Of a stretch of 64,000 bases of DNA, positions 7,858 to 14,404 are shown one piece after another. Both the position numbers and the translations under genes were made by a program. Source of the stretch: Chitiniphilus eburneus (GTDB lineage: Bacteria > Pseudomonadota > Gammaproteobacteria > Burkholderiales > Chitinibacteraceae); NCBI RefSeq assembly GCF_005048205.1, contig NZ_SUMF01000001.1, positions 372,001 to 436,000 on the forward strand. Reading direction: 5' to 3'. The notes beneath the pieces are model-generated. The model searched no databases. It saw only the letters and a program-made list of their open reading frames with translations, and was not told the DNA's origin. Every line of letters begins with the position of its first letter. Position 1 is the stretch's first letter.

Positions 7858-7893
7858 TTGCTGTTTTTCACCGAATTTCCGAACCCTTCCCCC

Positions 7894-10671
7894 ATGACCA
7901 CTGCCCTGGAACAACTCGCCAAGAGTTTCGAACCCGCCGCGATCGAAGCCGCCTGGTATCCGCGCTGGGAATCCGCGCATTACTTCAGCCCCAGCATGGA
8001 CGCGAGCGCACCGTCGTTCGCCATCCAGCTACCGCCGCCCAATGTGACCGGCACGCTGCACATGGGTCATGCCTTCAATCAGACCATCATGGACGGTCTG
8101 ACGCGTTATCACCGCATGCGCGGCGACAACACGCTGTGGTTGCCCGGTACCGATCACGCCGGGATCGCCACCCAGATCGTGGTGGAACGCCAGTTGGCCG
8201 GCCAGGGCATCTCTCGCCACGACATGGGGCGGCCCGCCTTCATCGAGAAAGTATGGGAATGGAAGCAGCAATCGGGCGATACCATCACCAGCCAGATGCG
8301 ACGCATGGGCGCGTCGGTCGACTGGGGCCGCGAATACTTCACGATGGACGACAAGATGTCGGGCACCGTGACCGAGGTGTTTGTCCGCCTGTATGAACAA
8401 GGCCTGATCTATCGCGGCAAGCGCCTGGTCAACTGGGACCCCTTGCTGGGTACCGCTGTTTCCGATCTGGAAGTGAACAGCGAAGAGGAAGACGGCCATC
8501 TCTGGCATATCCACTACCCGCTGGCGCAAGGCGAGGGTCACCTGACCGTGGCCACCACCCGTCCGGAAACCATGCTGGGCGACGTGGCCGTGATGGTCCA
8601 TCCGGAAGACGAACGCTATGCACACCTGATCGGCCAATCGGTGAAGCTGCCGCTATGCGACCGGGAGATTCCGATCATCGCCGACGATTACGTCGATCGC
8701 GAGTTCGGTACTGGCGTGGTGAAGGTCACCCCGGCGCACGATTTCAACGACTACGCGGTCGGTCAGCGCCATGACCTGCCGCAGATCGCCATCCTCACGC
8801 TGGATGCCAAGATCAACGATAACGCCCCGGCCGCCTATCGCGGCATGGACCGCTTCGCCGCCCGCAAGCAGATCGTCGCTGACCTGGAGGCTGGCGGTTT
8901 CCTCGCCGAGATCAAGAAACACAAGCTGATGGTGCCGCGCTGCGAACGCACCGGCCAGGTGATCGAGCCGATGCTCACCGATCAATGGTTCGTCGCGATG
9001 AGCAAGACCGACGAAACCGGCAAGAGCATCACGCAGAAAGCGCTGGAAGTCGTGGAAAACGGCGAAGTGCAGTTCGTGCCCGGAGACTGGGTGAACACCT
9101 ATTACGCGTGGCTGAAGAACATCCAGGACTGGTGCATCAGCCGTCAATTGTGGTGGGGCCACCAGATTCCGGCGTGGTACGACGACGAAGGCAACGTCTA
9201 CGTCGCCCGCGACGAAGCCGAGGCCAGTGCCAAGGCCGGCGGCCGCGCCCTCAAGCGCGACGATGACGTGCTCGATACCTGGTTCTCATCGGCACTGGTG
9301 CCGTTCTCCTCGCTGGGCTGGCCGCAGGAAACGCCGGAACTCAAGGCGTTCCTGCCATCCTCGGTACTGGTTACCGGCTACGACATCATCTTCTTCTGGG
9401 TCGCCCGGATGATCATGATGACCACGCACTTCACCGGCAAGGTACCGTTCAAGCATGTCTACGTGCATGGGCTGGTGCGGGACGGCGAAGGCAAGAAGAT
9501 GTCCAAGTCCGAGGGCAACGTGCTCGATCCGGTGGACCTGATCGACGGCATCGCGCTGGAACCCTTGCTGGAAAAACGCACGACCGGCCTGCGCCGCCCG
9601 GAAAAGGCGCCTCAGGTCGCGGCCAAAACGCAGAAGGAGTTCCCCGAAGGTATTCCGGCCTACGGCGTCGATGCGGTGCGCTTCACCTTCGCATCGCTGG
9701 CATCGCTGGGCCGCTCGATCAACTTCGACCAGAAACGCTGCGAAGGCTATCGCAACTTCTGCAACAAGCTGTGGAACGCCACGCGCTTCGTGCTGATGAA
9801 CGTGGAAGGCCGCGATTGCGGGCTGGAGGCTGGCGCCGAGCTGGATTACGGCTTTGCTGACCGCTGGATCATCGGTCGCCTTCAGGAGGCCGAAAAAGCC
9901 GTCACGCTGGCGCTCGACACCTTCCGTTTCGACCTGGCCGCGCAGGCCATCTACGAATTTGTCTGGAACGAGTACTGCGACTGGTACATCGAACTGGCCA
10001 AGGTTTCCACGCAACACGGCAGCGAGGCGCAGCAACGCGCCACCCGCCGCACCCTGATCCGCGTACTGGAAACCATCCTGCGCCTGACCCATCCGATCAT
10101 GCCCTTCATCACCGAGGAGCTGTGGCAGGTGGTCGCCCCGCTGGCAGGCAAGAAGGAGGTCGATTCGCTGATGGTGGCACGCTGGCCGCAAGCCGACGAG
10201 AGCAAGATCGATCCGGCTGCGACCGCGACGGTGGACGCATTGAAGGCACTGGCCTTCGCCGCGCGCAACCTGCGCGGCGAGATGGGCCTGTCGCCGGCAC
10301 AGAAAGTGCCGCTGTTCCTGGAAGGGCCGGCATCGCTGGCGCAGTTCAGCGCCTACCTGCTGCCGCTGGCCAAGCTGTCCGAGGTGCATGTGGTGGAACG
10401 CCTGCCCGAAGACGACGATGCCCCGGTCGCCATGGCCGGCAGCATCCGCCTGATGCTGAAGGTGGAAGTGGACAAGGCGGCGGAAGCTGCTCGCCTGTCC
10501 AAGGACATCGCCAGGACCGAGGAGGGTTTGTCCAAGATGCGCGCCAAGCTGGAAAAGCCCGGCTACATCGACAAGGCCCCCGCCCACCTGGTGGAAAAGG
10601 ATCGTGCCCAGGTGGCGGAACTGGAGGATCGCCTCGGCAAGCTGCAAGGCCAGTTGCAGAAACTGCGCTGA
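7894..10671 (+). CDS. valS: Valyl-tRNA synthetase
   Basis: Class I synthetase that charges tRNA-Val and edits mischarged threonine. The 925 residues fit the family. The HIGH motif appears as LHMGH at residues 55-59 and the KMSKS motif at 535-539. The editing domain lies between them (about 200-360). A tRNA-binding helical domain follows, and the last 60 residues form the valyl-specific C-terminal coiled coil ([20 protein letters not shown]). I chose the ATG at 7894 ([14 protein letters not shown]); a longer frame from 7858 overlaps the putative promoter. Confidence 0.97.
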
Positions 10672-10758: not shown

Positions 10759-11265
10759 TCAAGGCAGCGAAACGCGCAGCCACAGATCCGGCGCGGCATG
10801 GGGCTTCCAGTTCAGCGCAACACCCGACGACACGTCGCGCCGCGCCTGGTAGGCCTGCCCTTCGTACCACACCCATTCACCCTTGCGGTAATGCTGGCCA
10901 CGCTCCCAGGCGCTGGGGCGCCAGCGGGGATCACGCATCCAGGGGCGGTCGTTGTCGCGATCGTCGTCCCAGCGATCCCTGTCATCCCTGCGATCGCCAT
11001 CGCGACGGTGGTCATCGTTCCAGTCGCCCCGATCCCCACGCCCACGGCCGACCGGCTCCCACAGCGACGGCGCCGCCTGCGGTGTCCAGCCCGCACCACG
11101 CCACGCGGTATGGCTTTGCAGCACCCGGTACGGCTTGCCATGGAACACCACCACTTCGCCGGTCCGGTACTCGCGGCCTTCGCGCCATTGTGGCGCCGCG
11201 GAAGATGGGCCAGCCAGCAACAGCGTGGCAAGGCCAAGCGCGGCAAGGGCGTGAAGTCTTTTCAT
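10759..11265 (-). CDS. Secreted protein with two chitin-binding (CBM5/12-like) modules
   Basis: A 168-residue protein with signal peptide about 1-23 (MKRLHALAALGLATLLLAG, cut after a SSAA-type site). It consists of two short modules with the CBM5/12 pattern W-x-x-G-x-x-Y-x-x-G, a middle YR/YQ and a final LW. The first is at about 26-72 and the second at about 120-168. The linker between them is packed with Asp and Arg. No catalytic domain is present. The modules resemble those of the neighbouring chitinase on the same strand, suggesting a chitin-binding helper or surface-display role. I chose the start that gives the signal peptide. Confidence 0.82.
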   Translation of the reverse strand: MKRLHALAALGLATLLLAGPSSAAPQWREGREYRTGEVVVFHGKPYRVLQSHTAWRGAGWTPQAAPSLWEPVGRGRGDRGDWNDDHRRDGDRRDDRDRWDDDRDNDRPWMRDPRWRPSAWERGQHYRKGEWVWYEGQAYQARRDVSSGVALNWKPHAAPDLWLRVSLP

Positions 11266-11522
11266 TGTCAGGTCTCCTTTCGATCGGCGAACACATCGCC
11301 CATGGCTTTCAATGGCTGGAACGCTTGCTGCGTTGACCATTGCGCGATTCATATCCGGCGGATGTGAACGGAACCACATCCATTCCGCGCGTCGTGGCGC
11401 ATTGCCTCGAGGGAAGGATGCCCCGCTTCCACAGCTACTGGGCAGTGAGCGCCGGCACACGCGGAGCCGGCTCACAGCCACGGCGTGAATAGGTCACAAC
11501 CCCTACCGTGGCCCCAATGAAA

Positions 11523-11550
11523 AACGGGCAAGCCCGAAGGCTTGCCCGTT
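11523..11550 (-). terminator. Terminator after the chitinase gene
   Basis: A perfect 12-bp stem AACGGGCAAGCC with a four-base loop, followed on the minus strand by a T run, 20 bp beyond the chitinase stop at 11570. It separates the chitinase transcript from the chitin-binding gene. Confidence 0.9.
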
Positions 11551-11569
11551 CAGTTACGTCGGCTCGGAA

Positions 11570-14329
11570 TTACTGGAGCTTGGCAACCGGCAGGTTCGGA
11601 TATTCCTGCTGTACCGCGTACTCCTTGCCACCCACCGTCACAACGTAGTTGGACGGGCCGGTAATCGGCAGGTAGTAGTTCAGGGCTACGTCGATGGTTG
11701 CACCCGGGGCAATGGCTTGCCAGCTCGGCAGCGTGAAGCCAGCCGTATGGAAGTCACCCTTGAAGCCGCCAACGTTCGCGCCGGTATGCTCGGAAGCAGT
11801 GACCTTCAGGCCGGTACCGGACTGATCGCTCATGTTGTTCGGTGCGGAGACCGGGTAGTTGAACTCGATCTTGGTGCCGCCCGGAATCGCAACGGTGCCC
11901 TTGTTGGTGATCTTCAGCTTGGGGTTGATCGGATAGTTCTGATCGCCCAGCTTGAAGTCGGTCACATCGAACTGGAGCTGAACCACTTCGCCCGGCATCA
12001 CGCGCTTGGCACGCTTGTTACCGTACGGGGTGGTGGCGCGGAAGTTCTGTGCCAGCAGACGGGTCATCGTGGCGCCAGGCACGTATTGGCCCTTGGTACC
12101 GTTCAGGTTGGTCTTGTTGGCATCCCAGTCGTAGTCACCAGCCATTTCCCAGAACATCGCACCGCCGATGCCGTTGGAGTTGATCCACTCGGCCTTGCGC
12201 TGGATGGAGGTCTCGTCTTCCGTCGAGATGAACACCTTCTTGCTGGCGTTCCACAGCCACGGCGCCACCAGGGTCGCGTCGTAGTTGCGGGCGTACGTAC
12301 CGGTCAGGTCGGCAGCAGCCAGACCGAACAGCGGCAGGTAGTCACCGGCGATACCCTTCTCCAGGTTCTTGGCGTGCCACATCGGGTTGGAACCTGCGCC
12401 CAGTTCACTGCCGGCGTCGTTCAGGTCATGCCAGATGTTGTCGATGCCGGAAGCACCGTTGCCGCAAGGCGGGGTCAGGCCCACGTCGCAGGTTTGCGAC
12501 GGCGCGGTGCCCCACAGACCGTTGTTGCCACCGGTCACGTTCTTCCAGCCACGGGTGTAGAACGGCAGACCCGCGTTGATACGGCCGGCCGGCACAGCGC
12601 CACGGAAGTAGCGATAGGCCCAGTCGGTGTTCAGGTAGCCGATGCCACCGTATTGCGAGGTGGAGTACACCGACCACTTGGCCAGCTCGGCATCCTTGCC
12701 GTCGTCGAACAGGGCGGCGTTCGGGCCGACGAACTCGTTCCAGGCGCCATGCAGGTCATACGTCATCATGTTGACGTAATCCAGGTACTTCACGGTCTGG
12801 TAGGTTTCCATGCCGCGCAGCAGGTAGCCCGACGACGGCGCTGCGATGGTCAGCATGTAGTAGCGGCCGTCCTGTGCGGAGGCGGCATCCAGCTTGGCAC
12901 GCAGCACCTTCATCAGTTCGCGGTAGGACGCTTGCAGGCCAGCCAGGCGCGGACCGGAAACAGCCCAATCCTTCGGGTTGCCGGCGTTGGCCATGGTGGT
13001 CGGATATTCGTAATCGATATCCACGCCATCGAAGCCGTACTTGCGCAGGAACGCCACCGAGGAATCGGCAAATGCGTTGATGCCGGCGGTGTTGATCGAG
13101 CCGTTGGCGTTGGTGGTCATGCTGTAGAAGCCACCCGAAGCCACGCGATTGCCATCGGCACCGAAGTAGCCACCGGTTTCAGCCCAGCCGCCCACCGACA
13201 CCAGCGTCTTCACGCCGGGGTGCAGCTTCTTGTACTTGTTCAGCAGGTTGAAGTGGCCCTTGTACGGCAGCGTCGGGTCCATTTCAGCGCCGGCTACGCC
13301 CGGCCATTCCATATCGGTGGATTCGTTCCCCGGAACGGTTTCGTTCACAGAGATCTTGTTGTTGCCATCGACGTGGGCGAACGCGTAGTTGATGTGGGAA
13401 ATGTCATTCCAGGGAATGTCATTGGCCAGATAGGACGGCAGGCCATTCCTGCCGGTACGCCAGTTGGTGAAGTAGCCGATGATGCGGCGCTTCAGGCCGT
13501 TGGCCAGCTTCTCGCGACCGTCCTGGTCGTAGGCCTGGCAGTACGGCACGTTGGCAACACCGGAGGGCTCCAGACCATCGGGGCGGCAATCGGTGCCCGG
13601 GATCGGGGTCGGCGTCGGGACAACCGGCGTCGGGGTCGGGGTGACGACCGGCGTCGGAGTCGGGGTCACGACCGGAGTCGGGGTCGGCGTCACAACCGGA
13701 GTCGGCGTCGGGGTCACGACAGGCGTCGGAGTCGGCGTCACGACCGGGGTCGGCGTCGGGGTCACGACAGGCGTCGGGGTCGGCGTCACAACCGGGGTCG
13801 GCGTCGGGGTGGTGCCACCACAGTTGCCCAGGTTCTTCCACACGCCCCAGTCACCGGACTGAGCCGGGTTGTCGCCTTGCGTCCACCACTTGGCTTCGTA
13901 GTTCACGCCATTGAGGGTCACACGGGAACCACCGGTGTAAACGCCGCTGGCATTCCAGGCCTGATAGCAGGTACCGGCCGGGGTCGGGGTGACCACGGGC
14001 GTCGGGGTCGGGGTGACCACCGAAGTCGGGGTCGGAGTGGGCGTGACGACGGGCGTCGGAGTCGGGGTCACGACCGGAGTGGGCGTCGGGGTGGGAGTAC
14101 CACCGGATGCGCCCAGGTCTTTCCACAGCGTGGGAGTGGAAGCCGGGTTCCAGTTCGCGCCAACATAGGCGGTGTGGGTGACCAGCGCTTGATACTCGTG
14201 GCCGCTATAGCTGACCGTGGTGCCGGCACTATAGGTGGTGCCTTCCTGCCAAGCCGGCGAGGCTGCCACGGCATACGCCGCAAACAGCGCAGCCGGAAGC
14301 AGCGCGAGTGACATTCGAGTCGACGACAT
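11570..14329 (-). CDS. Secreted multimodular GH18 chitinase
   Basis: Hydrolyses beta-1,4 links of chitin outside the cell. The 919 residues form signal peptide (about 1-23), a CBM5/12 module (about 25-75), a Thr-Pro linker, a second cysteine-containing CBM5/12-like module (about 118-170), a long Thr-Pro-Val linker, a GH18 barrel (about 260-720) and an Ig-like C-terminal domain (about 745-919). The catalytic DxxDxDxE motif is intact as DGVDIDYE with acid/base Glu441. The ATG at 14327-14329 has GGAG nine bases upstream. An ATG five codons earlier has its GAGG directly adjoining and is less likely. A putative promoter and terminator suggest a single-gene transcript. Confidence 0.95.
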   Translation of the reverse strand: MSSTRMSLALLPAALFAAYAVAASPAWQEGTTYSAGTTVSYSGHEYQALVTHTAYVGANWNPASTPTLWKDLGASGGTPTPTPTPVVTPTPTPVVTPTPTPTSVVTPTPTPVVTPTPAGTCYQAWNASGVYTGGSRVTLNGVNYEAKWWTQGDNPAQSGDWGVWKNLGNCGGTTPTPTPVVTPTPTPVVTPTPTPVVTPTPTPVVTPTPTPVVTPTPTPVVTPTPTPVVTPTPTPVVPTPTPIPGTDCRPDGLEPSGVANVPYCQAYDQDGREKLANGLKRRIIGYFTNWRTGRNGLPSYLANDIPWNDISHINYAFAHVDGNNKISVNETVPGNESTDMEWPGVAGAEMDPTLPYKGHFNLLNKYKKLHPGVKTLVSVGGWAETGGYFGADGNRVASGGFYSMTTNANGSINTAGINAFADSSVAFLRKYGFDGVDIDYEYPTTMANAGNPKDWAVSGPRLAGLQASYRELMKVLRAKLDAASAQDGRYYMLTIAAPSSGYLLRGMETYQTVKYLDYVNMMTYDLHGAWNEFVGPNAALFDDGKDAELAKWSVYSTSQYGGIGYLNTDWAYRYFRGAVPAGRINAGLPFYTRGWKNVTGGNNGLWGTAPSQTCDVGLTPPCGNGASGIDNIWHDLNDAGSELGAGSNPMWHAKNLEKGIAGDYLPLFGLAAADLTGTYARNYDATLVAPWLWNASKKVFISTEDETSIQRKAEWINSNGIGGAMFWEMAGDYDWDANKTNLNGTKGQYVPGATMTRLLAQNFRATTPYGNKRAKRVMPGEVVQLQFDVTDFKLGDQNYPINPKLKITNKGTVAIPGGTKIEFNYPVSAPNNMSDQSGTGLKVTASEHTGANVGGFKGDFHTAGFTLPSWQAIAPGATIDVALNYYLPITGPSNYVVTVGGKEYAVQQEYPNLPVAKLQ
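13617..13810 (-). repeat. 24-bp tandem repeats encoding the second chitinase linker
   Basis: About eight copies of a 24-bp unit encode the octapeptide TPTPTPVV in the linker before the GH18 domain. Copies differ mostly at third positions. Such linkers space binding and catalytic modules and can change length by slippage. Confidence 0.85.
13978..14100 (-). repeat. Shorter Thr-Pro linker repeats between the chitin-binding modules
   Basis: The same TPTPTPVV-type unit occurs here about four to five times, with one variant (TPTPTPTSVV). It encodes the linker between the two chitin-binding modules. Confidence 0.8.
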
Positions 14330-14404
14330 AAGGGGGTTCTCCATCCTCGTTAAGTAACTTTATTCGCGCGCTCTTCTTGGAAGTGCTGGGCTACGCGCGA
14401 GGGC

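Follow-up and report, generated by a model that had tools for sequence, protein, structure and literature searches.

A predicted secreted protein with two chitin-binding modules and an Asp/Arg-rich spacer encoded beside valS in Chitiniphilus

Main finding

A small gene lying convergent to valS in the window (the whole stretch of 64,000 nucleotides analysed) encodes a 168-aa protein. Most probably, this protein is secreted and, having no enzymatic activity, binds chitin bivalently through two modules kept apart by an extended charged spacer, as an accessory to chitin breakdown; a probability of roughly two in three is given to this reading. It is favoured because the protein has only CBM_5_12 domains and a spacer predicted to be disordered, because the spacer composition is conserved and the modules display dN below dS, and also because a GH18 chitinase lies on the side of the gene away from valS in five genomes out of eight and the secretomes of relatives hold CBM5/12-only proteins. 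Against it stand the g10 homologues, which have neither a recognised chitinase nearby nor the NW-P Trp, the weakness of the structure model, and the single 9-mer shared upstream of the gene and the chitinase.

Specialised chitin degraders secrete proteins that bind chitin without known enzyme activity, and a small conserved protein encoded near valS offers a clean test object for the contribution of a non-catalytic tandem binder to chitin breakdown. Its single strongly variable part is the spacer, so that a function of charged spacers beyond keeping modules apart can be probed as well. If the protein only binds, it would be a useful small chitin tag and otherwise an ordinary case.

The gene and its product

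Positions 10759-11265 were correctly delimited by the earlier note, which left the strand unstated. They are read on the minus strand and translate into 168 aa from an ATG at 11265 preceded by the ribosome-binding site AAAGGAG. The features of the locus are the following.

7858..10671, plus strand: valS, convergent downstream neighbour (named by sequence motif)
10759..11265, minus strand: ORF with two CBM5/12 modules and no catalytic domain (translation, Pfam PF02839, orthologues in 8 of 43 family genomes)
10762..10908, minus strand: CBM5/12 module 2, residues 120-168, with the GEWVW strand (Pfam, homologue alignment, model)
10909..10947, minus strand: RPWxRxPxWRP segment flanking module 2, residues 107-119 (nine-homologue alignment)
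10948..11052, minus strand: Asp/Arg spacer proper, residues 72-106, predicted disordered (composition, homologue alignment, structure model)
11053..11190, minus strand: CBM5/12 module 1, residues 26-71 (Pfam 26-70, phmmer alignment to 1ED7)
11194..11265, minus strand: signal peptide, about residues 1-24 (sequence, boundary judged by eye)
11518..11551, minus strand: hairpin and T run just past the chitinase stop, candidate terminator (RNA fold)
11570..14344, minus strand: GH18 chitinase with two CBM5/12 and a ChiC domain, Thr-Pro-Val linkers (Pfam)

Pfam detects CBM_5_12 (PF02839) alone, in two stretches (E 6e-21), with a score of 74.6 bits for a cut-off of 26.2, which places the protein within the curated profile; no further Pfam domain appears at E<=1 and the NCBIfam scan gives no match. 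Residues 1-24 resemble, by eye, a Sec signal peptide with no lipobox Cys. As the signal peptide, the two modules and a 48-residue spacer fill the 168 residues, no room is left for an enzyme. By Pfam, NCBIfam and eye, the layout is that of a catalysis-free stand-alone chitin-binding protein (predicted signal peptide plus CBM only), which agrees with what had been read from the sequence at the outset. The marks of a CBP21-like AA10 LPMO are missing, since Pfam finds no LPMO domain and the mature protein starts near APQW, not with His. Long antisense ORFs run over the small gene (10798-11367, plus strand) and over the chitinase (11717-14311, plus strand); they are probably by-products of GC-rich Asp/Arg and Thr-Pro-Val codons and not genes.

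Trp60 of module 1 aligns in phmmer with the Trp of AGWEP in 1ED7, the chitin-binding domain of chitinase A1, a residue that we take to bind chitin. In module 2, Trp131 and Trp133 of GEWVW are kept in all nine homologues, and Trp153, the counterpart of Trp60, in six, the column being devoid of Trp in the three g10 sequences. At this NW-P position, two of them (G036 and G037) carry a Trp one residue earlier and G038 has none; given this lack in g10, the binding mode of module 2 may differ in some homologues. Module dN ranges from 0.02 to 0.25 against a dS of 0.26-2.57, with dN lower than dS in 7 of the 7 homologue pairs compared, and by this measure the modules are under purifying selection.

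The best of five AlphaFold models, obtained from a two-sequence input, has a mean pLDDT of 67.9 (34-48 for the others) and displays two small strand modules separated by a spacer mostly below pLDDT 50. Foldseek gives good matches to 4TX8, the N-terminal module of a Chromobacterium violaceum chitinase, and to 1ED7 from Bacillus circulans chitinase A1, the latter with a TM by target of 0.78, as expected of a small stranded module on this middling-confidence model. Both structures have the same fold and the conserved Trp but, unlike the 168-aa protein, belong to chitinases with a catalytic domain. The first-ranked hits are tandem-module Vibrio deacetylases superposing with an rmsd of about 13, and thus their module arrangement differs from that of the 168-aa protein.

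The chitinase lies upstream of the small gene on the same strand and comprises 924 aa, with the Thr-Pro-Val linkers already noticed in the earlier note. Folding of the RNA from 11495 to 11569 yields -33.4 kcal/mol (z -3.2), and the hairpin at 11518..11551 is probably the chitinase terminator; a consensus promoter/terminator scan found nothing there and called no terminator. Since a hairpin and a T run follow the chitinase stop, the small gene is probably transcribed separately, from a promoter of its own. Only one 9-mer is common to the upstream regions of both genes. The source genome is closely related to that of Chitiniphilus shinanonensis, in which the corresponding locus (L001/L033, NZ_KB895335.1) holds an orthologue 80% identical over the alignment, with the same neighbours.

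The charged spacer

From the end of module 1 to the first Trp of module 2, the spacer spans residues 72-119, that is, 48 residues, close to the 45 or so first estimated. It contains 15 Asp, 14 Arg, 5 Gly and 4 Trp with no Glu, Lys or Thr, for a charged fraction of 0.60, a net charge per residue of -0.02 and a kappa of 0.07. When the window's 231 six-frame ORFs of 100 aa or more are compared, the highest Asp plus Arg count (23 of 30 residues) and the best-balanced Asp/Arg content over 30 residues (at least 11 of each, 6 for the runner-up) both fall in this ORF, from which it follows that the spacer does not reflect background composition. The Asp:Glu ratio is 61:69 in the neighbouring valS. The spacer DNA includes a weak 9-base tandem repeat at 10967-10995 (3.2 copies, 75% matches, score 37).

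The region is predicted to be disordered, with AlphaFold pLDDT under 50 at residues 75-96 and 98-100, and the RPWxRxPxWRP segment that follows is conserved among the homologues of g1 and g6. As Asp favours helices poorly, a rigid helix of the Glu/Arg type is unlikely for the spacer. The claim that such a charged spacer is unusual holds within the genome, as none of the CBM5/12 ORFs compared (eight in one set, plus another set) carries one, the other linkers being Thr/Pro-rich, short or of no comparable kind.

Homologues and their spacers

Of the 43 family genomes, 8 gave matches at E<=1e-18; they belong to 3 of the 11 genera. Eleven rows passed this threshold, including two not counted as orthologues, namely a single module of a 425-aa frame (L031, in G016) and an 87-aa single-module ORF (L030, in G036). 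The nine homologues are stand-alone proteins of 166-187 aa, with starts chosen by eye (GTG in G036 and G037), and occur in G000, G014, G013 (two, in tandem), G015, G016, G036, G037 and G038. Pfam recognises two CBM_5_12 stretches in the six scanned (G000, G014, both of G013, G016 and G038), and the two-module layout of G015, G036 and G037 was judged by alignment. Fusion of homologues to catalytic domains, which according to the earlier note would make the gene a fragment, is found in none of the nine, all short stand-alone ORFs.

In every genome bearing the gene (8/8), valS is near and convergent. It is directly adjacent in g1; in G037 and G038, some 600 bases separate it from the gene, and a further small gene between the two is possible; the interval holds an 87-aa ORF in G036 and two genes in g6. 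This 87-aa ORF (L037:10031-10294, plus strand) encodes a single-CBM5/12 protein with a short Asp/Arg-rich tail. On the other side, a GH18 chitinase is found in g1 and g6 (5/8 genomes), and none was recognised in the 20-kb stretches around the g10 homologues (3/8 genomes). In G013, homologue b, a 344-aa protein with two CBM5/12 and homologue a lie in this order between the chitinase and valS. In g6, two other genes separate the chitinase from a b-like homologue, after which come a relative of the 344-aa protein, one further gene and valS. These orders fit an old tandem pair with differing losses; the module tree, in which 3 of the 8 inner branches have good support, is compatible with a G013 duplication before or after the g1/g6 split. 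A second CBM-only protein stands beside the homologue in G013, G015 and G016 (L034:9407-10441, minus; L035:9859-10893, plus; L036:9436-10656, plus), being detected at E<=1e-25 in three of the 43 genomes of the family, and combines two CBM5/12 with a proline-rich N-terminal region and a C-terminal region without assigned identity.

No plasmid homologue was found at E<=1e-10. In a wider search of 399 genomes drawn evenly from the order, with at most 9 first-look candidates scored per genome, at least 15 genomes matched at 1e-13. All full-length rows belong to genus g1, and the three matches beyond the family (G117, G197 and G313) are single modules in frames of 441-689 aa.

The nine spacers measure 48-67 residues, with a charged fraction of 0.34-0.62 and a net charge per residue of -0.12 to +0.09. 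In all of them, Asp and Arg greatly outnumber Glu and Lys, there is hardly any Thr or Ser, and 3-5 Trp and 0-5 Tyr are present. The charge patterning is not conserved while the composition stays, kappa going from 0.07 in the 168-aa protein to 0.51 in a same-genus homologue. Near-neutral net charge alone is weak evidence, because some 30 charged residues give a chance spread of about 0.1; the remarkable feature is the preference for Asp rather than Glu and for Arg rather than Lys.

The spacers differ in sequence from one lineage to another. In g1, the three 'a' spacers mix Asp and Arg with a slightly negative net charge and evolve fast (35-70% identity, in a gappy alignment with saturated synonymous sites). 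In the G013a spacer, 14 acidic residues follow one another without a break, and that of C. shinanonensis has two DDDD runs, the longest acidic runs being of 3 residues in the 168-aa protein and 2 in g6 and g10. The g10 spacers consist of YDDGQY-H/R-PDPR units in varying number. The g6 spacers (charged fraction 0.35-0.38) share RRYYDxxGHDTGQWRGPxGYPGDPGYR with that of G013b. Between G013b and G016, the spacer is 86% identical (dN 0.09, 8 gapped columns) and the modules 83% and 78%. The spacer of the 'b' homologues (L034:10565-11191, minus; L035:9299-9799, plus; L036:9053-9553, plus) is thus conserved between genera as much as the modules, which is unusual for a linker; it may have a structure or take part in binding.

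Proposed role and alternatives

In the preferred reading, each of the two CBM5/12 modules would attach to crystalline chitin, and an extended, water-loving and roughly neutral spacer, the Asp/Arg chain, would keep them apart. Thus separated, the modules could bind at once to neighbouring chains or fibrils, and the bound protein would assist the chitinolytic machinery by holding or loosening the surface or by bridging fibrils. All steps beyond the domain content are inferred: export via Sec and then out of the cell, attachment to chitin, its capture by both modules at once and any effect on chitin breakdown. As far as the available part of a study on a two-domain LPMO goes, charged residues and prolines promote extended linkers, and linker length mattered more than composition (PMC10598543).

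The earlier note had proposed that the spacer might cause self-association or surface retention. Self-association through charge or Arg-aromatic contacts would form on chitin a layer retaining enzymes or sugars near the cell, and the Trp and Tyr that accompany Arg and Asp in the nine spacers make up a composition compatible with weak multivalent contacts. Nevertheless, the unconserved patterning (kappa 0.07 here against 0.51 in the same genus) and the lower charged fraction of g6 make it unlikely; a kappa that varies under a steady composition fits an extended spacer equally well or better, and the homologue sequences argue against self-association by conserved charge blocks. Retention on chitin would be explained better by the two modules themselves than by the charged spacer. 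It seems doubtful that the charged, aromatic-bearing spacer is the working part, giving a weakly cross-linked layer on chitin, or a grip on calcified chitin where Asp runs are long; such a layer would keep the secreted chitinases, and what they release, near the cell. A tether, with modules gripping chitin and the spacer gripping the outer membrane or a surface protein, would suit an Arg-rich spacer in a protein without an anchor of its own, but it is improbable for a spacer near neutrality, slightly negative in the three g1 Asp/Arg homologues, in which no anchoring motif is seen.

Binding of calcium or carbonate mineral by an Asp-rich spacer, directing the protein to calcified chitin such as crustacean shell, would account for the acidic runs of G013a and C. 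shinanonensis; acidic runs do not exceed 3 residues in the 168-aa protein or 2 in g6 and g10, and Arg balances the charge, so that this explanation is very improbable. Hardly any credence is given to a decayed or truncated chitinase or a functionless ORF. The genome does contain 51 CBM5/12 matches at E<=1, but the gene has a ribosome-binding site and modules with dN lower than dS, and its orthologues stand alone in 8 of 43 genomes, in each case close to valS and convergent with it; all this speaks against such an origin, and a chitinase fragment was rejected on the same grounds. A hidden enzyme has the precedent of CBP21-type chitin-binding proteins, which later proved to be LPMOs; it is scarcely conceivable here, as both folded parts are small CBM5/12 modules of about 45 residues, outside which there are just the signal peptide and a spacer with predicted disorder.

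Related proteins

The CBM-only kind of protein is known. In Huang et al. 2012, as relayed in part by PMC7641034, ChiF of C. shinanonensis has only two chitin-binding domains and no catalytic domain. It is a CBM-only protein of the same genus but lies among clustered GH18 chitinases (contig C4), whereas the valS-linked gene is on contig C1, and the 168-aa protein was rejected as a ChiF orthologue on position and architecture. The gene at the ChiF place (L032:13181-14893, plus strand) encodes a 570-aa protein in which Pfam recognises three CBM5/12 and which also has Thr-Pro linkers and an additional C-terminal region; its identity with ChiF is deduced from its place, not from the ChiF sequence. 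Residues 219-570 are 89% identical in C. shinanonensis. Both this gene (G000:C4) and G014:C12:96273-97943 associate three CBM5/12 with a C-terminal region of about 250 aa that carries HETGH and matches nothing in Pfam or NCBIfam. Judging from this motif, ChiF, described as non-catalytic, may be a chitin-targeted metalloprotease.

In the available portion of PMC8802321, Andreprevotia ripae has 27 CBM-containing proteins without a function tied directly to chitin conversion, several of them detected and chitin-induced. Appendix Table A2 of PMC10455584, among the parts available, gives for Jeongeupia wiesaeckerbachi signal-peptide proteins with CBM5 or CBM12 only, some of them extracellular. From these portions, the proteins of both species resemble the 168-aa protein in combining a signal peptide with CBM5/12, in occurring outside the cell and, for some, in being chitin-induced, whereas those of A. 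ripae mostly carry other domains or long regions of unassigned kind (PMC8802321, PMC10455584). The same portions of these two papers make no mention of a charged spacer and offer no one-to-one match to the valS-linked gene. In the literature searched, mostly outside subscription journals, neither a charged Asp/Arg spacer joining chitin-binding modules nor the valS-linked family came up, and the Asp/Arg-spacer variant appears to be undescribed.

Pairs of CBM5/12 modules with a signal peptide and nothing else also exist in related genera (L054:9667-10062, minus, and L055:9673-10068, plus, 131 aa; L057:1644-2066, minus, 140 aa), but their spacer is of roughly ten residues and is not Asp/Arg-rich. 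A stop codon between the modules in g7 genomes was rejected on reading the DNA, each having one intact 131-aa ORF.

Finally, a multi-copy family of the source genome is located near contig ends (L015:661-1551, plus; L016:512-1408, minus; L018:1435-2328, plus; L019:853-1749, minus; L020:511-1404, minus). Pfam above cut-off sees only the modules in the one copy scanned; the two CBM5/12 are near-identical between copies, and after them come a stretch of DADQDGVRDD type and a C-terminus that varies.
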